This document shows, one piece after another, positions 31,337-46,448 of a DNA stretch of 64,000 nucleotides. Origin of the DNA: an uncultured Prevotellaceae bacterium (GTDB taxonomy: Bacteria; Bacteroidota; Bacteroidia; Bacteroidales; Muribaculaceae). A program made the translations under genes and the position numbers. The DNA is taken from contig ONOU01000005.1 of assembly GCA_900319525.1 (NCBI GenBank), positions 39,771-103,770 of the forward strand. The letters run 5' to 3'. Under the pieces are notes generated by a model, which saw only the letters and a program-made list of their open reading frames with translations, had not been told where the DNA came from and searched no databases. Within the stretch, counting starts at the first letter, position 1. Each line of letters opens with the position of its first letter.

Positions 31337-31409
31337 GGGGCATTAGCTCATCTGGTAGAGCGCAACACTGGCAGTGTTGAGGTAAGCGGTTCGAGTCCGC
31401 TATGCTCCA
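31337..31409 (+). tRNA. tRNA-Ala (anticodon GGC)
   Basis: A 73-nt cloverleaf. The acceptor stem GGGGCAT / ATGCTCC contains the alanine identity pair G3-U70. The D arm is AGCTC-...-GAGC, the anticodon stem is CAACA / TGTTG with loop CTGGCAG, and the T arm GCGG-TTCGAGT-CCGC is complete; the discriminator is A. CCA is not encoded. The gene lies exactly at the change from G+C-rich core to A+T-richer accessory DNA and is a likely integration site. Confidence 0.96.
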
Positions 31410-31455: not shown

Positions 31456-32394
31456 CTACTCGGTGCTTCCCCCCAATGTACCCCCCTTTTGACCTTCCGG
31501 TACTTGCTTCGATATGATATTCTGGATATCATTGTCGAATAGCCTCTGCTCAGGGCTCACGTTGCGTTCCTTCAATTGCTCCACGTTAATCGGCGTACCA
31601 TCTTCTTCAGAGAAAACGCTAGCAATAACTGTTTTCACTTGGGTATCCTCAACAGCATCACTTGACAACATCCTCATCAGACTTAACAGACAGAAGAAAC
31701 TCGTTTTATTTGTTCTCTTCGCCTTTTTTAACCATCTCAACTTGGCCGGTAAAGCTAATACTGACACATTAAATATGCTAACAAAATCATTCTGCTTACC
31801 AGCTTCTAGACATCCTTGATTTACCAAATATTCATACACTTCCATCAGCGTGCGCAAATTCAATTTGGTGTCCAAAAATGGAGTCAGCACAAATCTCTCA
31901 TCAATCTTCAGGTTAAATTTACGGCCCAATTCTGTGACGATAGAGTGTAACTCAACAAGGTAAGTCTCATAGTCTTTAGGTGCCCTGCTTTGAAAAAAAT
32001 ACACCTTTTTATACTTTTCATGAAGAATATTCAAGTATTTATTCTCATTCAAGTCGTTGCCGTGTTCCCCTAAATTAGTATCATCGAATCTGAAAGTCTT
32101 TTTAATCGGCCTATCATAGAACTCCAATGTAGAGTAGATCCAGCAATCGTGCAACATTTCCGCGACAACAGCAAGTTGGTCTGCAGATGTGATTCCATTG
32201 ACATAGTACCGGAACGCAGACAATGAAGGCAATTTCAAGCTGTGGTCGATAATCGCACACTTCAGTCGATAGCACATAGACTCCAACTTAAACATGCACA
32301 TATCATCGTGCCGCTCATCAAGTATACCCTGAAGGGCTTCCAACAACGTGTCTTGTTTCTCCATTGCTGCGGATTCAACATTTCTTTTACTCAT
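31456..32394 (-). CDS. Unknown protein, island edge
   Basis: Not recognised. The ATG at 32394 gives about 312 residues and lies 24 bp from a strong promoter. The protein looks soluble and helical, with a cluster of Cys/Tyr/Arg (MCYRLKCAIID), an acidic start and a basic patch (WLKKAKRTNKTSFF). No catalytic motif or HTH is obvious. It is the first gene inside the presumed island, where an integrase is usual, but no tyrosine-recombinase R..HxxR..Y pattern is seen. Confidence 0.6.
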   Translation of the reverse strand: MSKRNVESAAMEKQDTLLEALQGILDERHDDMCMFKLESMCYRLKCAIIDHSLKLPSLSAFRYYVNGITSADQLAVVAEMLHDCWIYSTLEFYDRPIKKTFRFDDTNLGEHGNDLNENKYLNILHEKYKKVYFFQSRAPKDYETYLVELHSIVTELGRKFNLKIDERFVLTPFLDTKLNLRTLMEVYEYLVNQGCLEAGKQNDFVSIFNVSVLALPAKLRWLKKAKRTNKTSFFCLLSLMRMLSSDAVEDTQVKTVIASVFSEEDGTPINVEQLKERNVSPEQRLFDNDIQNIISKQVPEGQKGGTLGGSTE

Positions 32395-32418
32395 AGTTAT
32401 AACTGTGTTTTCGTGATG

Positions 32419-32450
32419 CAAAGATAATGCTTTTTCATCATAAACACAAA
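32419..32450 (-). promoter_or_regulatory. Promoter of the island-edge gene
   Basis: Minus-strand TTTG (32447-32450), 20-bp spacer, TATCTTTG (32419-32426). It is a perfect Bacteroidota promoter. Confidence 0.78.
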
Positions 32451-32666
32451 TCAATGGCACCATTACGCAATAATGATGTTAGCCCTAATGCAATGGCCAA
32501 ATCACAGATCACCGTACAAACGTCACACAGCCCTTTACCTATACATATTCACCCCAAAATGGACTTTTTGTCACTACCCTGACAAGCCAAAATGGCAGAT
32601 GTCAGCAGATCATAAATTTATTTTCTCGTCCCCTTAGCCCCCAAAACAACTCATTCTTCTGATTTT

Positions 32667-32680: not shown

Positions 32681-32743
32681 TGTGCGTTTTATCCCCTTTC
32701 TCCCCTTGGCACGAAGGCAAATTTGTTGCAGCATGGATGGTCG

Positions 32744-33079
32744 ATGAAAACTTCAAGAAATATAAATGACGCCAACTTGCTCGGCAAACGAGTAGTTGAC
32801 ATGACCGGCGAGGAAATCGTCAGCCTTATCCGCGACGCCGTCGACGTTGCTGTAGCCGAGAAGTCTTCACCCGTGCAGGCGAAAGACAAGAAGTTGCTCC
32901 ACGGGAAGAAGGAACTCGCCCGCGCGTTGAGTGTATCTGTCTCGACCGTGAGCAGATGGCTCGAGTCAACGATCAAGCCTCCTGCTGTGATCCGCGCCGG
33001 TAGAGTGCTCTTATTCGATCATGACCTTGTACTTGAGCAGCTTAAAAACTGCGATGGGCTTAGGTGGAACGACCGATAA
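32744..33079 (+). CDS. Excisionase-like DNA-binding protein (DUF3853 type)
   Basis: About 111 residues. The C-terminal half has a MerR/excisionase-like helix-turn-helix (LHGKKELARALSVSVSTVSRW, then a wing with GRVLLFDHDLV). The N-terminal LLGKRVVDMTGEEIVSLI resembles DUF3853 proteins of Bacteroidales mobile elements. The ATG at 32744 is preferred over 32723. It may control excision or transfer functions of the island; that is inference. Confidence 0.65.
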   Translation: MKTSRNINDANLLGKRVVDMTGEEIVSLIRDAVDVAVAEKSSPVQAKDKKLLHGKKELARALSVSVSTVSRWLESTIKPPAVIRAGRVLLFDHDLVLEQLKNCDGLRWNDR

Positions 33080-33119: not shown

Positions 33120-33180
33120 ACGACCTTGAGTCGTTCTCCCGGCACGGCCGCCCGCCGGTTCTAAATAGGGCAGCAGCATT
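33120..33180 (+). ncRNA. Two-hairpin structured element, copy A
   Basis: Hairpin 1 is ACGAC-CTTGA-GTCGT (33120-33134). A 4-nt spacer leads to hairpin 2, CCGGC with a 10-nt loop containing GGCCGC and closing GCCGG (33139-33158); AAATAGGG follows 4 nt later. The same architecture, with a compensatory base change, occurs as copy B ahead of the next gene. This copy is 68 bp upstream of the radical SAM start. It could be an RNA leader or a DNA recombination site; no known RNA family was recognised. Confidence 0.5.
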
Positions 33181-33225
33181 AGATTATTACAAAATGATAT
33201 ATATTTATAAATTAATTTTTTGAAT

Positions 33226-34362
33226 ATGAGAAATTTAAGTTTGTTTTTTACTAGTTTCACCAGCCGCATAACGCGCGCAGGTTGGGAAGAGCCCTACCAG
33301 AGTAAGGCCGAGCCCCTGTCGCTGGACGATATCGCAGCCAGCGACGAGGAAACCAAGGAACTTAAAACAGAGAATTCTATGAGTAGTGAACCTACCAAAA
33401 CGGCCGAACTCTCCCAGGTGGAGACCGAGGTACAGCCCGGAACTGAGCAGGGCGTAGTTGTAGCTCAGGCACCCACTCCTCAGGGTGAGAACGAAGAGAT
33501 CAGCCGTGACACTAACGGTAATACTACTGGGAGCGTTTCTTGGACCGCATTCTATCAGCCCAAAGGTCCCGCTGGAGAGTATGCCGCTCAAGGCTATGGG
33601 CTCAACCTTTTTAAAGGGTGCAGAGGCGGATGCATTTATTGTTATCGAGAACACGGTATCATCAGCAAGTCCATTGGAGGCGACACCCCTGAGTTACTGA
33701 AGAAATTCAAGAATGAAGCTAATGCTCTGGCTCGTGTTGCACACGATCTTGTTAACCACAAGAATGAACTTGTAGCCGCTGATGGTGTGTTCGCAACGTT
33801 CACTAGCGATCCCGGTCAAGAGGCTACCTTCCCGCTATTCAAGCAGGCCTTCGACCTTATCATTAAGGCTGGTGTACCTGTGAAGATGCTGACCAAGTTC
33901 ACGAGTTGGGTAAACACTCCCGAGGGTCAAGAGCTGCTTGCAAAGGGCGCAAGCACGGGCCTTCTTGCAGTAGGCTTCACGCTTACTGGTCACGATGAAC
34001 TCGAGACTGGCGCTTCTCCCAATGCTGATCGTGTGGCAGCGATGAAGAGCATCCACTCTATGGGGATCAAGACCTTTGCCTCGATTGAGCCTGTTATTGA
34101 CCAGCAGACCTCGCTCGACATGGTTAAGGCAGCAGTTGGCTATTGCGATATGTTTCTGGTGGGTCTTGAGAGCGGCCCAAATAGGCATGTTCTCACGGAT
34201 GATGAGGTTTCCAACATGAGTCATCAGATGATTGATGTTGTGCGCTCCTGTGGTGTGGGTTCAATCTACTTCAAGAGCAGCATTCTCAAGGTAGCCAAGG
34301 CAGCAGCTGTGATTGCCAGCGAAGGTAGCGGTATTGTAGTTTCCAAGTCCATCATGTTCTAA
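33226..34362 (+). CDS. Radical SAM protein (SPL-like)
   Basis: About 378 residues. The iron-sulphur motif CRGGCIYC (Cys132, Cys136, Cys139 from the ATG at 33226) with preceding YGLNLFKG fits radical SAM enzymes of the spore-photoproduct-lyase-like / DNA-repair-photolyase group. Later barrel strands are readable as VKMLTKFT, LAVGFTLTG, IKTFASIEPVID and MFLVGLESG. The first ~100 residues are low-complexity, acidic and Gln/Thr-rich, and have no match; an internal ATG at 33379 is an alternative start. The substrate is unknown. It is followed by 244 bp carrying hairpin copy B and then a Z1 gene in the same direction. Confidence 0.8.
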   Translation: MRNLSLFFTSFTSRITRAGWEEPYQSKAEPLSLDDIAASDEETKELKTENSMSSEPTKTAELSQVETEVQPGTEQGVVVAQAPTPQGENEEISRDTNGNTTGSVSWTAFYQPKGPAGEYAAQGYGLNLFKGCRGGCIYCYREHGIISKSIGGDTPELLKKFKNEANALARVAHDLVNHKNELVAADGVFATFTSDPGQEATFPLFKQAFDLIIKAGVPVKMLTKFTSWVNTPEGQELLAKGASTGLLAVGFTLTGHDELETGASPNADRVAAMKSIHSMGIKTFASIEPVIDQQTSLDMVKAAVGYCDMFLVGLESGPNRHVLTDDEVSNMSHQMIDVVRSCGVGSIYFKSSILKVAKAAAVIASEGSGIVVSKSIMF

Positions 34363-34439
34363 GCTATGATCACCGCAACACAATACCGCGCACCGCCCTC
34401 CTGCGGATGCTTATTAAGGAGACACAAAACTGCTCTACC

Positions 34440-34498
34440 ACGGCCTTGAGCCGTCAGCTACGGGTGGTCGCTGCCCGTCCAAGAAGTAGCGGCGAAAC
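34440..34498 (+). ncRNA. Two-hairpin structured element, copy B
   Basis: Hairpin 1 is ACGGC-CTTGA-GCCGT (34440-34454). A 5-nt spacer leads to hairpin 2, ACGGG with a 9-nt loop containing GGTCGC and closing CCCGT (34460-34478); AAGTAGCG follows 5 nt later. Relative to copy A the stem changes A-T to G-C on both sides, keeping the pairing, while the CTTGA loop is constant. It lies 129 bp ahead of the Z1 gene. A longer GATGCG / CGCATC pairing is possible further downstream. Confidence 0.5.
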
Positions 34499-34606
34499 CA
34501 AGCTCGATGCGGAGTTTATCATTCACGGGCGCGTCGCGCATCCGACAACCCCAACAATATCAAGAGAATATGATGATTAATATTTGCTTAAATTTCAACA
34601 ACTTAC

Positions 34607-36877
34607 ATGGCTAAAAGTTATCGTAAAAAGAGTATTGAGGCATCTGCCTCGTCCCCGTCGGCCAAGGCGGCTCGCGTGAAAAAGTCTGCAAACACAATTT
34701 ACAACACGTTGCAGGCGAACGCCAAGTATCCGTTAACAGCCGATAAACGCAAGTGTATCGATGACACTGTCAGACAGTTACTCGATAATGGACCTCACGC
34801 CGAAGACCCCGGCCTGTTGCTGGGATGCGTCCAAGGCGGCAAAACTGACACCTATGAGTACATCATTGCCGGGTGCCTTGATCGTGGCTTTGATGTCGTC
34901 GTGTTGCTCACTAAGGGAACCAATGCCCTGGCGTCACAGACACGCAGCAGGTTTGAGAAAGACTTCGCTGCTTTCAAGCCGTCCGATAATCTCACCCAAG
35001 GGGCTACCGTTGAGATCCATGACATCATGGCGTTGCGCAAGATCGGTCTCGTTGAGGCAAATGTCAACAAGACCAAGACCATCATCGTTTGCAAAAAGGA
35101 GCACAACAACATGAAGGCGCTGATCAAGCTGTTCAAGGATTACCGGTTCTTGAAGGGCAAGAAGGTGCTTATTATTGACGATGAGGCCGACTATGCCTCA
35201 CGCAGCTATAAGACCATCAAGGTCACGAAGAAGGGCCAAGCAGCTAAACGCGTGACCCATGTGGCCAAAATCGGCGAGCAGATCAACGATTTCCGCAAGC
35301 TATTGAAGTATCACAGGCTATTGCTGGTGACGGCCACGCCTTACAACCTGTTCCTGCAGCCAGATGGTTCGCTCATCCTGGACGGCAAGTCAATCAAGAG
35401 TCTGCGCCCTCGATTTGTCAGCATTGTGCCCATGCATGACCAGTACATTGGCGGCAAACAGTACTTCGTTGACTCCGATGATCCCAATTCGATGTACAGC
35501 CTCCTGCATCGCCCCCTTGGCCAAGATACCATCAACCTGCTGAGTGGTGGTCAAGGCAACGATGAAGAAATCAGGTTTGCCATTGGGCAGTATCTGATGG
35601 GCACTGCTATTCGTCGCATCCAGCAGCGAGCCGACGGCAAGGATTACAAGTCGAGCTTTGTGATTCACGTCCAAATCAAGAAGGTCTACCACCAAGGACA
35701 GGCTGATATCGTGAACGACATTATGCGCGATTTCTCGGCTCACTTTGCAGGGAAATCACTCCCTCAAGGTGTGGAGCAGATGCTGAAACAAGCCTACGAC
35801 GACTTCACCGAGTCCAACAGGAAGGCCCGCAAACAGAAACTCATCAATGTGCGCGTTCCCACCTTCAAGGCGGTGCTCAATGAGGTGAATGCTATCTTCG
35901 CTAATGGCAACTATTGCGTAAGAGTGGTCAACAGCGATAACGACGTGAACGCATTGCTTGACCCGGGCACAGGGGAACTCAGGCTCGATGCTGCTGTCAA
36001 CATATTCGTGGGTGGTAACATCCTTGATCGCGGCATCACCATCAAGAACCTGATAAGTTTCATCTACGGTCGCTCGCCCAAGACGTTCCAGCAGGACACC
36101 GTTAGCCAGCACCAACGCATGTTCGGTGCCCGTCCACTTGAGGATATGGCGGTCACTCGCTTCTATACGCCCCCTCTCATCTACAGCCGACTCAAAACCA
36201 TCTATGGCCTAGATGAGTACCTGAGGGAGCAGCTGGCCAGCAACAGTCCCGTCCAGATTCTTGGGACCAGCAGCAATATGCGTCCCTGCGCCGGGAGTAA
36301 GGTCATGGTTTCGGACATCATTGCGGTAAAGGAGCAGACACGCTACTTCCCGAGAGGTATCCAGACTGGCGGCGCACGCACGATCGGGAGAATCGTCAGA
36401 GACATCGACGCTCAACTCGATGCAGCTTTCAAAGCAGGGTCGCCCGATGCCAACGGCTTTATCGAGATGAAGGTTGATGATGTCATCGGCATCCTTGAGA
36501 AGATCAAGTCAACCTATGTGTATGGTTCCCAGCACAAGAACACCGACTATAAGCTCGAGCCCGAGGCGCAAATAGCACTGCTCAAGCACTGCTGCAAGGC
36601 ATCAGGTGGTAAGGTCTGGGTTGCGAGGCGCACTGGCCGTAATGCCAGCCGTACCAAGCAAAATGGTGTCTTCACCAATGCTCCCGACAATGGAACGAGT
36701 GATCTTGTCCCCGCACGCGCCAAGGCCATCGACAAGCCTGTAGTGATGATGATACGCCAAAACGGCAGGCAGTTCAACGGTTGGAGGGATACTCCCTTCT
36801 ATTGGCCGGTGTTACTCACGCCGATGACCACCCAGAGCGCCCTGTTCGCCACTACGGCCAAAGACAATCTGCCGTGA
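34607..36877 (+). CDS. Z1-domain ATPase/helicase-like protein
   Basis: A 756-residue protein with a P-loop GCVQGGKT (about residues 73-80), a DEAD-type Walker B in VLIIDDEADYAS (about 190), a TATPYN motif III and a Z1 domain in the middle (NIFVGGNILDRGITIKNL near residue 466, QHQRMFGARP). Z1 proteins are superfamily II-related ATPases usually found with AIPR, DUF4420 and DNA methylase genes in restriction-like loci; none of those partners is here. The neighbour is instead a radical SAM gene. A basic serine-rich N terminus precedes the ATPase. A strong terminator follows 142 bp later. Confidence 0.82.
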   Translation: MAKSYRKKSIEASASSPSAKAARVKKSANTIYNTLQANAKYPLTADKRKCIDDTVRQLLDNGPHAEDPGLLLGCVQGGKTDTYEYIIAGCLDRGFDVVVLLTKGTNALASQTRSRFEKDFAAFKPSDNLTQGATVEIHDIMALRKIGLVEANVNKTKTIIVCKKEHNNMKALIKLFKDYRFLKGKKVLIIDDEADYASRSYKTIKVTKKGQAAKRVTHVAKIGEQINDFRKLLKYHRLLLVTATPYNLFLQPDGSLILDGKSIKSLRPRFVSIVPMHDQYIGGKQYFVDSDDPNSMYSLLHRPLGQDTINLLSGGQGNDEEIRFAIGQYLMGTAIRRIQQRADGKDYKSSFVIHVQIKKVYHQGQADIVNDIMRDFSAHFAGKSLPQGVEQMLKQAYDDFTESNRKARKQKLINVRVPTFKAVLNEVNAIFANGNYCVRVVNSDNDVNALLDPGTGELRLDAAVNIFVGGNILDRGITIKNLISFIYGRSPKTFQQDTVSQHQRMFGARPLEDMAVTRFYTPPLIYSRLKTIYGLDEYLREQLASNSPVQILGTSSNMRPCAGSKVMVSDIIAVKEQTRYFPRGIQTGGARTIGRIVRDIDAQLDAAFKAGSPDANGFIEMKVDDVIGILEKIKSTYVYGSQHKNTDYKLEPEAQIALLKHCCKASGGKVWVARRTGRNASRTKQNGVFTNAPDNGTSDLVPARAKAIDKPVVMMIRQNGRQFNGWRDTPFYWPVLLTPMTTQSALFATTAKDNLP

Positions 36878-37019: not shown

Positions 37020-37047
37020 GGAGCGGCATGGGTCGCTCCTTTTTTTT
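37020..37047 (+). terminator. Rho-independent terminator after the Z1 gene
   Basis: Perfect 6-bp stem GGAGCG / CGCTCC with an 8-nt loop, followed by eight T residues (37040-37047). It ends the rightward transcript before the convergent NADAR gene. Confidence 0.88.
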
Positions 37048-37073: not shown

Positions 37074-38120
37074 TCAATAGACGGTATTCGTTGGATTCGT
37101 GCCGGGCGGCGGGAGCGGCAGCCCACTGCCTTCTACGCCGGTCAAAGGGATGTAGCCTTCACGCAGCGGGTTGACATACTCATCGAAGCCATAGAAGTAG
37201 TGCCCCTGGCGGCATTCATCGACGGCGAGTTTGAACCACTCTACATACTCTGGGTCACGGCCCTGGGCGTTGCGAGCGAGGCGTGGGTAATCATGGATGA
37301 TCCTCTCGGCGTTCTCATGTGGGGTCATGCTACTGTCATCCCATGGTAAGGTGCAGTCGGGGGTGTACAGTGCCTGGTCATCATCATGCTGCTCGTTGAA
37401 CATTACCCCACATTTATCCCAAGTATTTCGCTTGAGAGTCAACCAGCAGCGGTAGCACATGCCGTTGGGGCTGATGTAGGGGCACACACGGAACAGCTCA
37501 TAGCCCATCCGGTGAAGTTCGGCTACCGTCTCATAGTACCTGACAAAGCGCACGTGGATGTCTTGTTTTCCCCGCTCCTCATACAACAGTTGGCGCACGT
37601 CCATGAGGGTGAAGCCCAGCAGGTTCTTCCCATGCCATTTCTCGGGGTTACATGCATCCGGGTGGAACTCATCAAGACCGATGCCCCAGATGGTGTCCTT
37701 GGGGCTCGCTTCAACCAGAATCTTGTCACCCGTGCCCATCAAGAATTCTTTCAGTTGCGGGTTTTGAGTGAACTTGGCCATGTTACCCCTAAACACGACA
37801 TCATAGCGCTCTGCTTCCCATACGGCGCCGTCAAAACCCGTTACCTTGCGTCCCAGTTTCTTAATGGTCATCTGGTCGGTTTCACTCAATATCTGTTGGC
37901 GTATGGACTCGTCACCAAATACACGCGCTTTCTCGGCCATCATATATTGCTCTGCACAGTTATAGGTCTGCCCGTCGATGGTGAACGAGCAAGGATACCA
38001 CTGGCTAAGACACGCCTTGGTCACGCCTTCACCCTTGCTGGTATGTCCCCAGAAGAAAACGAAGTCGTCCCTGGTATATCTCTTGTTTAATGCTGTCAAA
38101 TGTGCAATGCAATATCTCAT
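37074..38120 (-). CDS. NADAR-domain ADP-ribosylglycosidase with extra C-terminal domain
   Basis: Residues ~20-185 form a NADAR (YbiA-like) domain: FFWGHTSKGEG, CLSQWYPCSFTIDG, YNCAEQYMMAEKARVF, and the late TIWGIGLDE and WHGKNLLGFTLMDVR. NADAR enzymes remove ADP-ribose from modified guanine, and some are antidotes to DarT-type toxins. The C-terminal ~160 residues (CPYISPNGMCYRCW, then FNEQHDDDQALY) are extra and unrecognised; the CxxxxxxxxCxxC spacing hints at a small metal site. The start overlaps the helicase-nuclease stop by 4 bp, so the two are made together. Confidence 0.82.
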   Translation of the reverse strand: MRYCIAHLTALNKRYTRDDFVFFWGHTSKGEGVTKACLSQWYPCSFTIDGQTYNCAEQYMMAEKARVFGDESIRQQILSETDQMTIKKLGRKVTGFDGAVWEAERYDVVFRGNMAKFTQNPQLKEFLMGTGDKILVEASPKDTIWGIGLDEFHPDACNPEKWHGKNLLGFTLMDVRQLLYEERGKQDIHVRFVRYYETVAELHRMGYELFRVCPYISPNGMCYRCWLTLKRNTWDKCGVMFNEQHDDDQALYTPDCTLPWDDSSMTPHENAERIIHDYPRLARNAQGRDPEYVEWFKLAVDECRQGHYFYGFDEYVNPLREGYIPLTGVEGSGLPLPPPGTNPTNTVY

Positions 38121-40909
38121 GACTCCAAAGTGTGATTGTTCGTTAATGAATTTCCTTTCAGGATGCTGAGTAATGATGATACAATCTTCACCTTCTCGTT
38201 GCTCTCGTTGGTCTTTAGTCGCAGTAGAGGCAAACCGTACACTTCAAGAATGTGGTTCTTAAGTAGGTCACGCTTATGTTGTTCGGTTTCATCATTGTGA
38301 TACGAGTAGCCATCTGTCTCGATAGCCATAACTGGCTTCTTGGTAACGTGATTGATGATAAGAAAGTCAAGATGAGTGCTGTAATGGGAGATGTACTTGC
38401 GCTCATCCTCGTTAAGCAGCGTCCAGTCCTTGATTACATTGCGCACGGGGGTATGACACAGGATGCCGAGGTGGCTAAAATCGGGATACTCAACCAGAAT
38501 GTTCTCGAGCAATGAATAGGTGAGGTTCTCGGAGTCGAATTCTGAAATATTCCCGTGTGCTGCTAGAAACGCCATTCTCTCACTTGTGTAGTGGGTGTAT
38601 AGATAATCAAATATGGAACTAATCTTGCTAACGGTAACAGACAGGTTATGATAGTCGATATAGTCTATCAAATCGCTGATATTTCCCTTCTGTTCCTGTT
38701 CATTACCCGAAACGACGAGGCAAAAGCGTTTCTTTGCTCGTGAGATAGCAACGTTGACAAGGTTGGCATCATCACTGAACTCCGAAATCTGATCATCAAC
38801 AGTGCTCAGGATAATCGTGTCTTTCTCGCGTCCTTGATATTTATGAATCGTCGAAGCCTCAATGTCGGGAAGTTGACGGTTAAGCTCATTTACCTGGCTA
38901 TTATAGGGCGTGATGATACCCACGTCCTCGCTTGGGTCAAGGCGCGGCAGCACCTCGTTCTTCACAACATCAATCTCGCGCTGGTTGTAGTGGTTGCGGA
39001 TGTGGTGCCCAGGTACGGTCTTGACAGCCATCATCACATCCTGCTCATCGTGGTCTTCGGTCATGATGAGAAGATTACCTCCGTAGAAGCGCTGATTGCA
39101 AAAGTTGATGATTGTGGGATGGCATCGATAGTGCTCACGTAGCAATGTTTGTTCAACATTGGGTAGTATGGTGCATACTGATTGCAAGAAACAATATTCA
39201 GCACAATTATAACCTGGCGCCACCCGATACTCATTGAAGATGCCCTTGTATTTGAGTGCATCCTCATCGGTTACCACATTGGGCAGCTGCATCGAGTCTC
39301 CTACTACGACGGCGTTCCTCGCACACGATAGGGCTAATGCGCCGGTATCTATTGAGACCTGCGATGCTTCATCCATGATGATGTAGTCATAAATATGGTC
39401 TGGCAATGACGTTCGTGCTGAGAATGTCGTGCTGAGCACCACCGGATACTGTTTACTGACATCATCGGCGCATCGGTGCAGTGCCTTCACGTCAGCGTAC
39501 ACGGTCCGTTGTTCCTTATGATACTTGCTATAGAGCGCTTTCTTCAACAAGGATAAAGATTGCGTCGTCAAGTCTGATGTCAGTGCCTCGGCATCGACTG
39601 ATGATAGCTCCTTTTCGATACGGGCGATACGGGCATTAAGTTCTCGGCCACGCGCGATAAAATATAGTGCCTGAAGCTCCAAGATTGTCGGTTGTGGATT
39701 GTCCGGGTCAAACGATGATTGTACCCCCAAGAGGTATCTCCGGCTAAAGTTCAACCATACCCACTTGAGTCGCTGCATAAGCGAGCCCTGCGAAGCAAAA
39801 TCCTCATGCTCGGTATGGGCCTGATACTGCTGCCACAATTTCATTAGGCGTTGAGACTTGGCCCGCTTCTTGGGTCTATAGGTATCATCTGTAATTTCGT
39901 TGTCGCGCTTAAAGTATTCCCACTCCAGTTCAACGGCCTTCGCCTCCTGCTTCATCATTGCCATTTCCTCTTGGAGAGAGAACACCTTACGCAATTTGGC
40001 TAATGTGGACGAAGTGCTACTCTTCAGCTTCCGGGAATCGTTAAAGGATAGCTCCCATGATAGCAAATCCTGTGGAATTGCAGGCTGGTTTTGGATGAAT
40101 TCCTCTTTATTCTCTCGCCTACCCAATGGAGCCACAAAGAAATCAAGTCCATAACTCTGCAACTTCTCCAGTACGTTAGCTGTTGCTGAGTTGTTGTTGG
40201 ACACCACGATTACCGACTTGTTCTGCATCAGGATGTTGGCGATGATGTTGAGAATCGTCTGCGTTTTACCCGTACCTGGTGGTCCTTGAATGACGCTGAT
40301 CTGGTTCTCGAATGCTGACGTGACAGCCTTTTCCTGGCTGGCGTTACAACCAAATGGGAATATCAAGCCACCGTTCGACTGTAGCCTGTGGACCTTGTAT
40401 TTTTCGGGATCAAGATAAGGTGCTATGGCTAATGTCCTATCGATAAACTTTATTTTCCCATATAAAGCAGGCAATAGTGCTTCGTTTTCCTCGTCTTTGC
40501 CCAGTTCATTCACTTGTGCGACACGCGTCAAGTAGCTGAAGGTGTTCTTCGCGATAGGGTCTCCAAGGCAGGATTCCACAACCTGGATAGTGCCGTGCAG
40601 ATAGTCTTTCACGAAACCACTTCCATATGAGATACGCCAGTGGGTCAATGCACCTTGATTAAAAGAATAGATGTCGTTTACATTGTGTTCTTCTCGTCCA
40701 CTGGTATATACCTTCGTGTGCTTTGGATCGTGCCACACTGCATTCGTCAGCTGCACCACGTCATCATAACGGTAGTTGTATCTCTTATAGCTATTCTTGA
40801 ACTTGATAGAATACAAGCCATTATCTCCCAATTCAATCCGATCAATTTGGAGAGCCTTGGGTTGCCCTTTTACTATGATGAAGGTGCGAGAGGACGGCAT
40901 GATTGGCAC
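38117..40909 (-). CDS. SF1 helicase fused to a C-terminal nuclease-like domain
   Basis: A 930-residue DNA2/NAM7-type superfamily 1 helicase: Walker A GPPGTGKT (near 206), a long insert rich in coiled coil, motif II DEASQVSIDTG (near 511), HYRCHP, IITPYNSQV and ISRAKKRFCLV. The last ~90 residues carry a DUF2726/Vsr-like nuclease core (FLIINHVTKKPVMAIETDG..YH, then GLPLLRL). The ~150-residue N-terminal beta-rich part is unassigned. It is probably a nucleic-acid-processing defence enzyme; the pairing with NADAR is unusual. A PD-(D/E)XK relation is inferred from pattern only. Confidence 0.8.
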   Translation of the reverse strand: MPIMPSSRTFIIVKGQPKALQIDRIELGDNGLYSIKFKNSYKRYNYRYDDVVQLTNAVWHDPKHTKVYTSGREEHNVNDIYSFNQGALTHWRISYGSGFVKDYLHGTIQVVESCLGDPIAKNTFSYLTRVAQVNELGKDEENEALLPALYGKIKFIDRTLAIAPYLDPEKYKVHRLQSNGGLIFPFGCNASQEKAVTSAFENQISVIQGPPGTGKTQTILNIIANILMQNKSVIVVSNNNSATANVLEKLQSYGLDFFVAPLGRRENKEEFIQNQPAIPQDLLSWELSFNDSRKLKSSTSSTLAKLRKVFSLQEEMAMMKQEAKAVELEWEYFKRDNEITDDTYRPKKRAKSQRLMKLWQQYQAHTEHEDFASQGSLMQRLKWVWLNFSRRYLLGVQSSFDPDNPQPTILELQALYFIARGRELNARIARIEKELSSVDAEALTSDLTTQSLSLLKKALYSKYHKEQRTVYADVKALHRCADDVSKQYPVVLSTTFSARTSLPDHIYDYIIMDEASQVSIDTGALALSCARNAVVVGDSMQLPNVVTDEDALKYKGIFNEYRVAPGYNCAEYCFLQSVCTILPNVEQTLLREHYRCHPTIINFCNQRFYGGNLLIMTEDHDEQDVMMAVKTVPGHHIRNHYNQREIDVVKNEVLPRLDPSEDVGIITPYNSQVNELNRQLPDIEASTIHKYQGREKDTIILSTVDDQISEFSDDANLVNVAISRAKKRFCLVVSGNEQEQKGNISDLIDYIDYHNLSVTVSKISSIFDYLYTHYTSERMAFLAAHGNISEFDSENLTYSLLENILVEYPDFSHLGILCHTPVRNVIKDWTLLNEDERKYISHYSTHLDFLIINHVTKKPVMAIETDGYSYHNDETEQHKRDLLKNHILEVYGLPLLRLKTNESNEKVKIVSSLLSILKGNSLTNNHTLES

Positions 40910-40973
40910 TATAGTGTTCAGATTTCGTTAGTTAATTGTAGATATAGGGTAAACCGACGTTTAATTTATATCT

Positions 40974-41381
40974 TCATTTGTCTTGCATACTTTTCCACCA
41001 AGTGATGTCATCGTCCCAGTTAGAAGAGTCCTTGAAATACTCTAGCCATGAGTCCAGGTCGTTTTCACCGATTTCTCCATTATCAATCTTATTCAGAATA
41101 GTCTTCCAGCCCTCAAGATAATGATTGAGTTCATCGCTTTCGCCTGAATAAGAGTAGTCACTGATATCTTCCTCTTCATCGTCAGGCTCACCATCAGGCC
41201 AAGCACCTTCGTAGGCCATAGTTTCCAATCGGTCCTCAATATTAACAACCTCGGTCTTCTCGCCATTTACTTCGGTGGCATTGAAAATCAAATATAACAA
41301 TTGGGCACGATTAAGGTAAAGAACATCATCACCATCCCAACCGTCTCCACATGCGCCACCACCATAAGCGCTCACGAACAA
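40974..41381 (-). CDS. Small acidic protein, possibly truncated by an in-frame stop
   Basis: A 135-residue, strongly acidic protein (runs of DDEEEDISD) starting with TTG in FVSAYGGGACGDGWDGDD; no family was recognised. In the same frame, 60 bp upstream, an ATG at 41441 opens METNELKKKALELLTRK and stops at a TGA (41388-41390) just before FQLFVSAYGGG. The simplest reading is one ~155-residue gene with a nonsense change or a sequencing error; the alternative is a TTG start. It lies between the DUF262 and helicase genes, in the same direction. Confidence 0.55.
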   Translation of the reverse strand: MFVSAYGGGACGDGWDGDDVLYLNRAQLLYLIFNATEVNGEKTEVVNIEDRLETMAYEGAWPDGEPDDEEEDISDYSYSGESDELNHYLEGWKTILNKIDNGEIGENDLDSWLEYFKDSSNWDDDITWWKSMQDK

Positions 41382-41500
41382 TTGAAATCACTTCCTTGTA
41401 GGAGCTCCAATGCTTTTTTCTTCAATTCATTTGTTTCCATATTCTAATAGAGCAATTAATGGTCCTTAGTTGTGAAACCCTAATTGACTCGGTCTATCAA

Positions 41501-43279
41501 TTAAAATTTCCACTGTGCGACAATCTTACTGTACAAATCATTGGCTCTTTTCTGAATCTCGTTTTCGTCCCAATTAGATAAAGAAAGGTAAGGCGTAAGG
41601 GTTACAAGCCCAGAAGCACAACTAATCAGACCAGGTTTATTGCCTTTTCCATTCAATTTGTCAGCCCACACACCATTGCTTATTGACGTGTTCAACTTCA
41701 TGGGTATGATTGCTAAGTTACCTAAAGTATATAGTGCATCGTTCCTCAGATCAGCTACGGCTTGAGTAACAGCAGGCCATGTTATTTGCCATTTTTTGGG
41801 CATCAAATGTTCCAGACTATAAGAGTTTAGACCAAGTAGTTTTGTTGCTGATGCAGAAGGGCGAATCCTGCTTTCCAACATGTACAAAATGCCTGTATTC
41901 TGTTTATTAACTAAGACTTGTGTGTCAATAGCATCCTTAACTTCTGTGTCAGATGGATATTTCAAGGTGGTGCCACTTTGCTTATTAATATAGGCAATGA
42001 AGTCAGATTTTGTAAGAACCTTGTTCGTCAATAGACTGTCGTAGAACATATTATTATAATTACGTGTGTCTGAATGGCAAATGATTCTCCTCATCATATA
42101 GGATTCAATGGCACCAAATAGATCATTTTGCTGCTGAGTGTTAGGATTGTTCACCAAGATGTATAACACGTATGGAAGCAGTGTGACACAATCCATAGAG
42201 AACATTAATAAACTCATTCGCTCCATACCAGGGGTTGATGGAATGGCTTTCAATCTGGCATCTGGATCAAAATAGTTCATGAAGGTGGTTGCATAGGTAT
42301 TGACCTCCTTTACCAGTCGTAATTTATTACCACCATAATACTTGCTGATGAAATCTTTATACGAATGGAACAAGTCTTCCATCCTCATATAGTCATCTTT
42401 ATCTGCAGTCGAAACGGTATAGCTCGACGTGTCGTGAATCTTTATGAGGAGAAAAGCGTAAAAGAACAAATCTATAAGATGTGGTCTTTTGGTACCGGCA
42501 ACAATTTCGTGATCCCAATAGTCTTTCTGGTCCTTATCTTGCTCAAAAATCGGCAACCAATATGTATTGAAGTTTGCAAAGGTATTTGAGTCAAAGAAAT
42601 AATTTTTCAACAGTTCTGATGTCGTTAGTCGAACTCCTAGTGAGTTTGTTGTATCAAATATTTGTTGCTCATCGTCATTTGGGTCTAAATCAATTAATAC
42701 AAAAGTCACATTATTAAGAATTTCTGTAATATTGTATTTCGCAAGGTTTTGCGATAATTCATTCAACATGTACTCATATAACAGTATAATCTGGTTTGGA
42801 TTCTTGATAATAGCTCCAGTCTTAGCATCTTGATAGTCCTTCTTTCCCTTTATCAATATATGATCGGCTTTTGTCAAGCCAAGTACTTGATTGAAGTATG
42901 GCTCATCAATACGATTATGCTTGAGTGTTAATTCCGTACTGACACCACTGCTAGTATATGCCTTTGTGATAAATGTATCAAAGAGCCCCGGGTATGTAAA
43001 CAAACTTAAGACTTTAAAGAACACAGTTATTGTGGTGAGCCTCTGTTGCCCATCAATAACGGTACGTTGATCTCCAATCGGGCCAGTAGGTGTCGGATTC
43101 TGTTTTAGAATCATTGAGCCAATAAAGTATGGCTTGGGGTTTGATGACAAGCGCCTCAAATCATCTAATAACTGTTCCCACTCTTTCTCACCCCACACAT
43201 ATGCTCGCTGATAATAAGGAATGTGAAGCAAACGTGCTTGATTAAAAATGTCACTTATTTTTTTTGTTCCTGCATTCAT
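41501..43279 (-). CDS. DUF262/DUF1524 protein (GmrSD-like restriction)
   Basis: A 592-residue protein. The N-terminal DUF262 (ParB-like, GmrS) domain shows IPYYQRAYVWGEKEWEQL and VIDGQQRLTTITVFF. The C-terminal DUF1524 (GmrD, His-Me finger nuclease) domain shows YSLEHLMPKKW and TLGNLAIIPMKLN. Fused GmrSD-type proteins cut DNA carrying glucosylated hydroxymethylcytosine and are type IV restriction enzymes; the exact target here is unknown. It starts 86 bp after hsdR and may share its transcript. Confidence 0.86.
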   Translation of the reverse strand: MNAGTKKISDIFNQARLLHIPYYQRAYVWGEKEWEQLLDDLRRLSSNPKPYFIGSMILKQNPTPTGPIGDQRTVIDGQQRLTTITVFFKVLSLFTYPGLFDTFITKAYTSSGVSTELTLKHNRIDEPYFNQVLGLTKADHILIKGKKDYQDAKTGAIIKNPNQIILLYEYMLNELSQNLAKYNITEILNNVTFVLIDLDPNDDEQQIFDTTNSLGVRLTTSELLKNYFFDSNTFANFNTYWLPIFEQDKDQKDYWDHEIVAGTKRPHLIDLFFYAFLLIKIHDTSSYTVSTADKDDYMRMEDLFHSYKDFISKYYGGNKLRLVKEVNTYATTFMNYFDPDARLKAIPSTPGMERMSLLMFSMDCVTLLPYVLYILVNNPNTQQQNDLFGAIESYMMRRIICHSDTRNYNNMFYDSLLTNKVLTKSDFIAYINKQSGTTLKYPSDTEVKDAIDTQVLVNKQNTGILYMLESRIRPSASATKLLGLNSYSLEHLMPKKWQITWPAVTQAVADLRNDALYTLGNLAIIPMKLNTSISNGVWADKLNGKGNKPGLISCASGLVTLTPYLSLSNWDENEIQKRANDLYSKIVAQWKF

Positions 43280-43364
43280 AATAATATATGTTTAATGTTA
43301 TTGATTCTCAATCAAATAGTCCCATATCATTTATGTTTTAGAGATTATTATTCCTTCTCATTTT

Positions 43365-46300
43365 CTACATTTTGCGGACGCGTTGGTCGTAGAGCTCGTT
43401 GAAGAAGATGCTCTTGAACATGTTGTTGGCGCGATCCTCGGTGAGTTTGTTGTACAATTCCAACTTGGAGTTGATGAAGTTGAGAAGTTCCTCGTCGATT
43501 CTCTCCTCAAACAACTTCTTGACATCGTCACGGGCATTGTCGGTATTGAAATAACCCATGAGTTCCTCGTCGTCGATCACACGCTGGCGCATTTTGTTCA
43601 GCTCGACCTTATCGTCTTCGGTCAGTTCAAGGCCGTAGGTGTCATTCAGCATCTTGATGATGTTGCTCAACAGGTCGAGCTCATCCTTAGGTGTAGCGCT
43701 ATCCTGGCCTGCAGTCTGGCCCTTCATGGCGGCATCACGCTCAGTGAGGCTGATGTTCTGGCGCCCCATGTACTTCACCTTGTAGCTGTCAAGCATTGTC
43801 TCATCAAGAACCTGATAAGGCAAGTTGCTCTTCTTGTAGGGCAGCTTCTTGTACAAGGCCAGACAGAATGGAGCCAACTGAGCAAGGTTTTCATCCTTGA
43901 ACGTGATGATCTGGCTCAGGAAATTGTACAGGTTGTTGAACCGGCGACAGCGTTTACGGAAAATCTCTTGATTCTCATCGTCAAGTATAGCGAGAGCCTG
44001 GTCACAGATCCTATCAAGAACTGCATTCACCTTCACCTTATTTGTTTTGTCGATGAAGTAATACTTGGCGAACTCATGAACGTCCTCTTTCTCGAAAACG
44101 CCAAACTGGTACAACTCGGATTGCAGCTCATACAAGGTGTTCGGATCGGTCGCGTCCTCCTCAAGCATGTAGTTACGGCCATAGTAGTCCTGGAAATCGG
44201 TTTGCACGTCCTCGGCATTGTTCACAAAGTCCAGAACCATCGTGGAGCCTTTGCCCTTCTTGGTACGATTCAGTCGACTCAAGGTCTGCACCGTGCTGGT
44301 GTCACCGAGCTTCTTGTCCACAAACATCGTGTGCAGGTTGGGCTCATCAAATCCCGTCTGATACTTCATGGCCACAATCAGGATTCGGTACTTGGGCAGT
44401 TTGAATGCCTCGGGGATTGAGATGTTTCCTTCAAGTCTATTCATTGACTTCTCGGTATACTCCTCGTTGGTGTCACCGTCCTTGACCGTACCAGAGAAGG
44501 CTACCAGTGCCTTGTAAGGCAAGTGCATCTCCTGCATGATGTCATCAAACTTACGCTTATAGCGCACTGCATGCAGGCGGCTCCTGGTCACCAGCATGGC
44601 CCGGGCCTCACCATTGATTTCCTTCTCGGTCTGGCTGACGAAGTGCTCAATCATGATACGGCTCTTACGCTCGATGGCGGCATCCTGCAGGTCCACATAG
44701 CTAGACAGCAGACGTACAGTCTTTTTCTTCTCATATTCGCTGTCGATGACTCCCTTGGCCGTCACCAGCTTGTAGTAACGCTTGAAGGTCATATAGTTCT
44801 CCAGCACATCAAGGATGAAGCCCTCGTCGATAGCCTGCTTCATGGAGTAGACGTCAAACGGTTCTTTCTCTCCGTTGATGTTTTCACAGAACAATTCTAT
44901 TGTCTTGGGCTTGGGTGTCGCCGTGAACGCAAAGTAGCTGACATTCTTCTTGATGCCAGTACGGCTCATCTCCCTCTCGATGGCCTCATTGAGCAACTTT
45001 TCCTCATCGGTTTCTTTTTCCTGTTCCTGGTCGAAGGCCTCGGCTTCCTCTAGCGACATGGCTTTCCTCATCTGGCGCGCCATGCTTCCGCTCTGGCTGC
45101 TGTGTGCCTCATCGATGATGACAGCAAAGTTTCGGTCGGCATAATGCTGTACCGAATCGGAAATGCTGGGGAACTTCTGGATATTCACGACGATGATCTT
45201 CTTTCTTGCCTCAATGGCGTTCTTCAGATCCTGGGCTGTCTTTCTGACTTTACCGTCCTCGCTGTCCATGATATACTCAACCTCACCAGGAGTGAGATCA
45301 AACTGGCGGATGTTCTTTCCAATCTGGGTATTCAGCGCCAAACGGTCGGTCACAACAAATACCGTGTCAAAAATCGGCTTATTGTCTGTATAGTTCTGGA
45401 AGAGGTTGCTCAGCCTGAACGCCAGCCAGGTGATGGTGTTGCTCTTTCCCGAACCAGCCGAGTGCTCGATGAGGTACCGGTGTCCAACACCTTTCTCCTT
45501 GAGTTCAGCCAACAAACGCCAAACGACCCTGCGCTGATGGTAGCGGGGGAAAATCATGGCTTGGCTCTTCTCAGTCTTGAGTGAGCCCGTTTTGGGGTCA
45601 TATTTCTTCTCCTCGTTTTCCTGAACCAGGATATAGTTCTGGATCAGGTCCAACAATGAGTCTTTACGCAAGATGTCGCGCCACAGGTATTCCGTTCTGA
45701 CAGTCTCTTGAGGATACTCTACGCCCTCGGGCGGCTTATTCTCAAAGAACTTGTTGAACGGGAAGAAACGGGTCTTCTCACCAGCAAGGCGTGTAGTCAT
45801 GAACACCTGCTCGGTGCCACAGGCAAAGTGCACTAGAATGCGCTTGAACTCAAGGGACTTTTCGCCCTTAGTGTCGCGGCTCTGCATATACTGCTTGATG
45901 GCGTTCTCGTGGGTCTGTCCTGTGAGGGTGTTCTTCAACTCGATCGTAGCCACTGGCAGTCCGTTGACAAAGATAGCCAGGTCGATGGCAAACGCAGTAT
46001 CCTTCTTGGAATACTTGAACTGCCGCATGATGGCGATACGGTTCTTGTGGTAGTTCACCTCATGTTCAGCGTTCAAGCTGCTTACCGGTTTGAAATATAC
46101 CATACGGAAATTCGCCCCGGGTGCCGACAGTCCGTTCCTGTCCTTGAGCACCTTGAGCGTTCCATACGTTGATAACTCGTGGTCCAGCCGCGAGAACAAG
46201 TTGTTCTGGGCATCGGTCTCTGTCCCCATCGCCTCAACGAGCTTTTTATACTCCTCGGGCTGGGTATCCTTCAAGAAGGCGATGACTTCAGACTTGATCA

Positions 46301-46448
46301 AGCAGAGGTCCCGGTCATATTCCGTGTTATCCACTTGATGATACTCCATGTCACGGAGTTCCTCTCCACCAATCGTAACGATGGGTTGTGAGGTCAAGTA
46401 CTCAACGATGTACTTCTCGAGATCAATTTCTTTGGGAGTTCCTGGCAT
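43365..46448 (-). CDS. hsdR: Type I restriction enzyme, R subunit
   Basis: Motor and nuclease subunit of a type I restriction-modification complex (1027 aa). The N-terminal PD-(D/E)XK nuclease has D in FAIDLAIFVNGLPV and ELK in IELKNTLTG. Translocase motifs are SAGSGKS (near 330), IDEAHSSQSG (near 445), FAFTATPKPK, MKYQTGFDEP and LSRLNRTKKGK. A helical C-terminal domain for binding the methylase complex follows. It is the last gene of hsdM-hsdS-rmuC-hsdR, starting 12 bp after rmuC. Confidence 0.95.
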   Translation of the reverse strand: MPGTPKEIDLEKYIVEYLTSQPIVTIGGEELRDMEYHQVDNTEYDRDLCLIKSEVIAFLKDTQPEEYKKLVEAMGTETDAQNNLFSRLDHELSTYGTLKVLKDRNGLSAPGANFRMVYFKPVSSLNAEHEVNYHKNRIAIMRQFKYSKKDTAFAIDLAIFVNGLPVATIELKNTLTGQTHENAIKQYMQSRDTKGEKSLEFKRILVHFACGTEQVFMTTRLAGEKTRFFPFNKFFENKPPEGVEYPQETVRTEYLWRDILRKDSLLDLIQNYILVQENEEKKYDPKTGSLKTEKSQAMIFPRYHQRRVVWRLLAELKEKGVGHRYLIEHSAGSGKSNTITWLAFRLSNLFQNYTDNKPIFDTVFVVTDRLALNTQIGKNIRQFDLTPGEVEYIMDSEDGKVRKTAQDLKNAIEARKKIIVVNIQKFPSISDSVQHYADRNFAVIIDEAHSSQSGSMARQMRKAMSLEEAEAFDQEQEKETDEEKLLNEAIEREMSRTGIKKNVSYFAFTATPKPKTIELFCENINGEKEPFDVYSMKQAIDEGFILDVLENYMTFKRYYKLVTAKGVIDSEYEKKKTVRLLSSYVDLQDAAIERKSRIMIEHFVSQTEKEINGEARAMLVTRSRLHAVRYKRKFDDIMQEMHLPYKALVAFSGTVKDGDTNEEYTEKSMNRLEGNISIPEAFKLPKYRILIVAMKYQTGFDEPNLHTMFVDKKLGDTSTVQTLSRLNRTKKGKGSTMVLDFVNNAEDVQTDFQDYYGRNYMLEEDATDPNTLYELQSELYQFGVFEKEDVHEFAKYYFIDKTNKVKVNAVLDRICDQALAILDDENQEIFRKRCRRFNNLYNFLSQIITFKDENLAQLAPFCLALYKKLPYKKSNLPYQVLDETMLDSYKVKYMGRQNISLTERDAAMKGQTAGQDSATPKDELDLLSNIIKMLNDTYGLELTEDDKVELNKMRQRVIDDEELMGYFNTDNARDDVKKLFEERIDEELLNFINSKLELYNKLTEDRANNMFKSIFFNELYDQRVRKM

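Follow-up and report, generated by a model that had tools for sequence, protein, structure and literature searches.

The question raised by this locus is why a short element of two hairpins stands twice, ahead of two adjacent genes, in a stretch of 64,000 nucleotides (the window) from an uncultured Prevotellaceae bacterium (GCA_900319525.1, contig ONOU01000005.1). An earlier note on this DNA placed copy A (33120-33158) ahead of a radical SAM gene and copy B (34440-34478) ahead of a Z1 gene, and suggested an RNA linked to these genes or, as a second option, a DNA-level role as a cassette recombination site to either side of the radical SAM gene. Both copies were confirmed in the sequence at these positions, each with both hairpins and with the shared GGYCGC and AARTAG motifs. 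On the basis of current results, the second option fits best: the hairpins are probably DNA swap points joining interchangeable gene modules, each of which would then carry a folded leader travelling with its gene, and this is more likely than an RNA dedicated to the radical SAM and Z1 genes. The earlier interpretation as a whole was partly supported. The features concerned are as follows.

33120-33134, plus strand: hairpin 1 (h1) of copy A, ACGAC-CTTGA-GTCGT, the proposed exchange point at the array head (attI-like).
33139-33143 with 33154-33158, plus strand: second hairpin of copy A, CCGGC/GCCGG, in a part spanning 33139-33174.
33147-33153 with 33168-33174, plus strand: GCCGCCC/GGGCAGC of copy A, interleaved with the second hairpin, with one C-A mismatch that is C-G in L199_1 and L200_1.
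33226-34362, plus strand: radical SAM gene of module 1, counted from its first ATG, the open reading frame (ORF) as listed having a TTG at 33220.
34440-34454, plus strand: h1 of copy B, ACGGC-CTTGA-GCCGT, the proposed exchange point between modules.
34460-34464 with 34474-34478, plus strand: stem S1 (second hairpin) of copy B, ACGGG/CCCGT, paired in 92.1% of cells in 13 copies.
34467-34472 with 34488-34493, plus strand: stem S2 of copy B, paired in 94.9% of cells in 13 copies.
34502-34515, plus strand: hairpin 3 of copy B, loop GATGCG, paired in 95.4% of cells, with two pairs changed on both sides.
34533-34546, plus strand: a further part of copy B, placed on the model-fitted alignment only.
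34607-36877, plus strand: the gene 3' of copy B (Pfam PF10593, E 5.5e-22).

The two copies could be a functionless chance likeness of two GC-rich palindromes. Such a likeness would agree with their folding energies, which were no better than those of shuffles (z of 0.83 and 0.87 on the plus strand and of 0.92 and 1.91 on the minus strand for 121-nt stretches; 0.73 and 0.10 with other cuts), and with the 15-nt repeat taken alone (13 of 15 identical), which did not clearly stand out among the nine short two-copy direct repeats of the region. However, when the two intergenic stretches were dinucleotide-shuffled 20,000 times, two perfect 5-bp hairpins sharing their 5-nt loop and 13 or more of 15 bases never arose, and any same-loop hairpin pair arose three times, in a test devised after the repeat had been seen. 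Because the two window copies could not settle the question, relatives were sought.

The genus holds one close relative of the radical SAM protein (2 of 101 genomes, including the window's own), 85% identical, on a contig of uncultured Prevotellaceae bacterium RUG412 (L133; other loci are labelled likewise). This contig carries, in order, a tyrosine integrase, an HTH_17 gene, a head site, the radical SAM gene, an element, a leucine-rich repeat (LRR) gene, another element and another LRR gene, and its integrase was used as a lead to further loci. Four L133 copies gave folding z of −2.47 and −2.71 in two cases and of −0.75 and 0.88 in the others. A covariance model of five copies (R1), with the second stem misplaced, matched 13 of the 101 genus genomes at E 0.01; one match (G387) was false and was dropped, as were matches in L206 and at L199 15069-15123, false by eye. 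Altogether, 26 copies from 13 genomes were read and 23 were aligned, L198_2, L208_1 and L208_2 being omitted as near-duplicates. The second stem was correctly placed in two other models. R2, of 103 positions from eight copies of other genomes with the window excluded, had matches in 9 of the family's 397 genomes, every one in the same genus, and among the loci examined it matched copy B with 70 bits (E 7.5e-11). It did not match copy A at E up to 1; copy A has a counterpart in another genome at L199 8658-8720, with 98% identity across the 95 nt to the right of h1. R3, from the 23 aligned copies including those of the window, had matches below E 1e-4 in 13 of the 101 genus genomes; of these 27 matches, 26 were the copies already read and one was G313:C53. 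At E 0.05, 27 of the 101 genomes passed, the weaker matches being unchecked. Among 393 genomes of the order, the window's own was alone in giving a solid match, with two others at E 0.002 and 0.003. The genome searches were run with stricter filters, and weak matches were lost. The window repeat is thus real, given this support from relatives and the independent R2 match to copy B. Chance likeness is hardly credible, since the relatives already refute it, matches of R3, a model built from copies of these genomes, being present in 13 of 101 genomes.

The check that the earlier note had proposed, a covariance-model search of Bacteroidota genomes, yielded homologues, all solid ones within the genus, but the expected tie to radical SAM and Z1 genes was not supported: in relatives the element is found as well ahead of LRR genes of BspA type, of a different kind of radical SAM gene and of a gene of 441 aa (ATPase-like by eye). 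Copies were found both behind an HTH-type gene and between genes, and at the head such a gene precedes the element in all 14 arrays read, that of L199 being called HTH by a weak match.

For all 253 pairs among the 23 elements, we compared the 95 nt right of h1 with the 50 nt left of it. Seven pairs were at least 94% identical on the right, and four of them (L133_C3/L198_1, L133_C2/L197_1, winA/L199_1 and winB/L170_2) were only 58-62% identical on the left (median 60); the other three, with 98-100% on the left, are arrays shared between related genomes. The opposite pattern, high on the left and low on the right, was seen in winB/L133_C2 (90% and 67%), L170_2/L199_3 (94% and 73%) and winB/L133_C4 (86% and 72%). 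In L198_1, the left half is that of the head site in L168 and the right half that of a site between genes in L133, with 138 of 141 informative sites consistent and the breakpoint at +1 to +5, inside h1. A scan of 10,626 ordered triples retained 11, nine of which break at −16 to +17 of the h1 start (h1 being 0 to 14), one of these at −16 to −7 and none deeper in the leader. The breakpoint of copy A lies at −3 to +7 around the h1 start (winA triple), and that of copy B at 0 to +20, or at −4 to −3 in the triple scan. A terminator role for h1 was rejected, as terminator calling gave no terminator-like site there. Such exchange, located at a short inverted repeat whose centre varies and that follows an HTH-type gene (in several loci also a tyrosine integrase), is best accounted for by site-specific recombination of modules. 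In the mechanism that we propose, h1 would be the exchange point, the head copy being attI-like and the inter-gene copies joining modules; the modules would reassort at h1, recombination itself being what we infer from layout and mosaics, and the leader right of h1 would move together with its gene.

The element might instead act in cis as a structured leader RNA, controlling the translation or the stability of each cargo gene, with gene and leader moving by ordinary homologous recombination and h1 being only the RNA 5' end. In the copies inspected, the right-hand part is indeed in sense orientation and ahead of a start codon. However, the sequences left and right of h1 reassort though only about 15 bp are common there, and about 15 bp of shared sequence is little for homologous recombination.

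Compensated pairs also speak for such an RNA. In measures that relatedness inflates, and for a structure read from the same sequences (h1, a possible S1/S2 pseudoknot and hairpin 3), 13 copies aligned without structure were paired in 92.6% of cells, compared with 87.2% when shuffled and at most 60.1% when slid; 12 cells were changed on both sides (3.8 shuffled), with 6 pairs showing such changes (2.8; reached by 5 of 500 shuffles) and 13 further pair types (10.6; reached by 33 of 500). Over h1 and S2 in 23 copies, and under the same caveat, 88.4% of cells were paired (84.3% shuffled, up to 68.3% when slid) and 13 were changed on both sides (5.2 shuffled), the 4 pairs with both-side changes being reached by 93 of 500 shuffles and the pair types by 239 of 500. 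In the model-fitted alignment, the only one on which hairpin 4 was judged, G-T exceeded A-C at pairs (28 vs 12 cells in 13 rows, 34 vs 18 in 19 rows), as a leader RNA would predict. However, by our own reading these reduce to about 10 distinct G-T events against 8 for A-C, so that the counts do not separate RNA from the other DNA strand and the strand is not settled. In addition, S1 and S2 of copy B (34460-34493) may form an H-type pseudoknot, but in the head copies of L201-L205 it is not clear. A regulatory leader RNA moved by homologous recombination is rather unlikely in our opinion; the part right of h1 is nevertheless probably a leader in the mRNA.

With more copies, the h1 loop turned out to be the variable part and the stem mostly constant ACGGC/GCCGT (by inspection, the 23 aligned copies have GCCGT or a sequence close to it as the right arm), and the constant loops described from two copies were a misleading picture. 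Pairing, which the earlier note emphasized, is indeed conserved, and changes in it are compensated; at one h1 pair, A-U replaces G-C in 3 of the 23 rows (winA, L199_1 and L200_1), which look like one inherited event. The note's remark that it knew of no named RNA family with this pattern was supported: Rfam 15 gave no match at gathering scores and none at the elements in two E-value searches (window, L170, L198, L199 and L204).

As for the enzyme, the L133 integrase contains Phage_integrase and SAM-like core domains, an Arm-DNA-bind_5 match of 22.4 bits (just under the 22.6 cut-off) and, in NCBIfam, weak XerD and XerC matches alone. A tyrosine, HxxR and GH visible by eye would fit the tyrosine recombinase catalytic set. 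Several observations weigh against recombinase-mediated exchange at h1. The L133 integrase has no match in nine element loci (window, L199-L205 and L208) within the stretches examined, and three of eight loci with a close integrase relative (L169, L171 and L172) have no element match, L169 ending at a contig end. Arms of 5 bp are short for a tyrosine recombinase core. For two of the 11 triples the break is at −31, within or close to the end of the HTH gene, L197_2 looks mosaic by eye between hairpins 3 and 4, and no excised circle or empty site was seen in the assembled loci. The L197 LRR gene (842-1753) matches LRR_a from its start and LRR_b at 92% over most of its length, a mosaic that would point to exchange at a place other than h1. 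The case for exchange at h1 is fair, and that for the enzyme is weak because integrase and element do not always occur together. We only tentatively suggest a separate exchange system, in which an arm-binding tyrosine recombinase might swap modules at a short hairpin core and the module's own 5' leader, possibly pseudoknotted, would allow expression anywhere in the array.

Integron arrays likewise have a head site (which here, in part of the loci, follows a tyrosine recombinase and an HTH gene), a repeated structured joint between co-oriented genes, modules reassorting at the joint and some arrays that lack a nearby recombinase. As in integrons, a head site is followed here by genes each of which is delimited by a recurring site, the recombination again being what we infer. 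At the exchange point, attC has the core GTTRRRY/RYYYAAC, whereas the joint arms here are ACGGC/GCCGT (by inspection), and most of the structured element here lies at the module 5' end. Integron integrases fall among simple recombinases (PMC8138268), whereas the L133 integrase seems to have a domain for arm binding, with a score just below the cut-off, which leans against an enzyme of IntI type.

Another candidate is the recombinase-associated acquired interbacterial defence (rAID) systems of Bacteroidales, whose common traits are a tyrosine recombinase, co-oriented genes and conserved intergenic motifs (PMC12247911). Conserved intergenic motifs occur here as well, matched in kind and not against the rAID motifs themselves. 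Whereas rAID clusters have at least two co-directional genes below 41% GC behind the recombinase, the cargo genes here are co-directional with a GC content of 43.0-53.7% (12 genes measured), and no orphan immunity genes appeared in the part of the cargo scanned against Pfam. Membership in rAID is improbable. The array seems to work like an integron array or a rAID cluster, yet we assign it to neither of the two, since for both systems one or more defining features were looked for and not found. Structured leader RNAs of Rfam share the conserved pairing upstream of start codons, but no curated model matched in the loci searched and the flanks here reassort at h1. Literature searches of open-licence PMC papers named no paper on this array among the matches listed. 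If our reading is true, a genus of Bacteroidales would gain a way to reshuffle defence-looking genes, cassette logic would exist outside IntI integrons, and joint plus leader would be recognizable by a model, so that arrays could be found and the recombinase directly tested.

The array is bounded by the following features.

31456-32463, minus strand: uncharacterised 335-aa gene at the left end, for which Pfam, PADLOC and NCBIfam all gave nothing at E 0.001.
32723-33079, plus strand: DUF3853 gene at the array head (Pfam PF12964, E 7.7e-16), with a weak HTH-type (LacI) match.
37020-37039, plus strand: terminator-like hairpin with a T run at the array end.
37074-38120, minus strand: NADAR gene at the right flank (Pfam PF08719, E 7.8e-54).

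By tblastn, DUF3853 relatives occupy the same position in L200-L205 and L208, and a relative of the 335-aa gene, 98.8% identical, flanks the L204 array; the name RteC for that gene, which has no profile support, was dropped. Just beyond the left-flank gene, a tRNA gene lies in three arrays (window 31337-31409, L204 8125-8197 and L199 10520-10591), possibly an island insertion point. By eye, the array ends of seven other loci contain sequence similar to the terminator-like hairpin. NADAR relatives adjoin the array in L133, L168, L170, L197, L198 and L204 and are present also in L202, with none within the examined stretches of L199-L201, L203, L205 and L208 (tblastn). Neighbours with defence-type profiles at 37074-46448 are NADAR, a helicase with DUF2726, GmrSD and a type I restriction R subunit. 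The gene array itself looks defence-related.

The radical SAM gene matched Pfam PF04055 (E 0.0009) and an NCBIfam PA0069-type profile (E 4.6e-10), both below cut-off. Its N-terminus (33226-33400) resembles by eye a separate short AGWEEPY-type ORF that follows the head site in relatives, and may be a fusion with it. Distant relatives were found in three other genomes among the 295 of the order and in seven phage records, all remote, and an h1-like regular expression, the pattern search alone, had no match in three of these remote loci (L003, L004 and L005). A loose viral pattern for the element was dropped, its loci looking unrelated by eye among the matches listed, and two stricter ones gave 0 matches. 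After the head site, L201, L202, L203 and L205 have ORFs with hydrophobic starts (441 aa in L203) and L200 has a 48-aa ORF. L133 600-1074 holds the radical SAM 3' end a second time, as a partial inverted copy that has an element of its own, followed by an ORF start and NADAR-like sequence (by eye). DUF5131, a by-eye name for genes of L199 and L204, was rejected, the L199 profile being radical SAM mobile-pair-A, below cut-off.

Finally, copies A and B sit in short open frames (47 and 57 aa), for which the pairing reading is preferred, and CCTTGAG occurs 34 times on both strands of the window, compared with 9.1 expected from shuffles, an excess that codon usage may explain.
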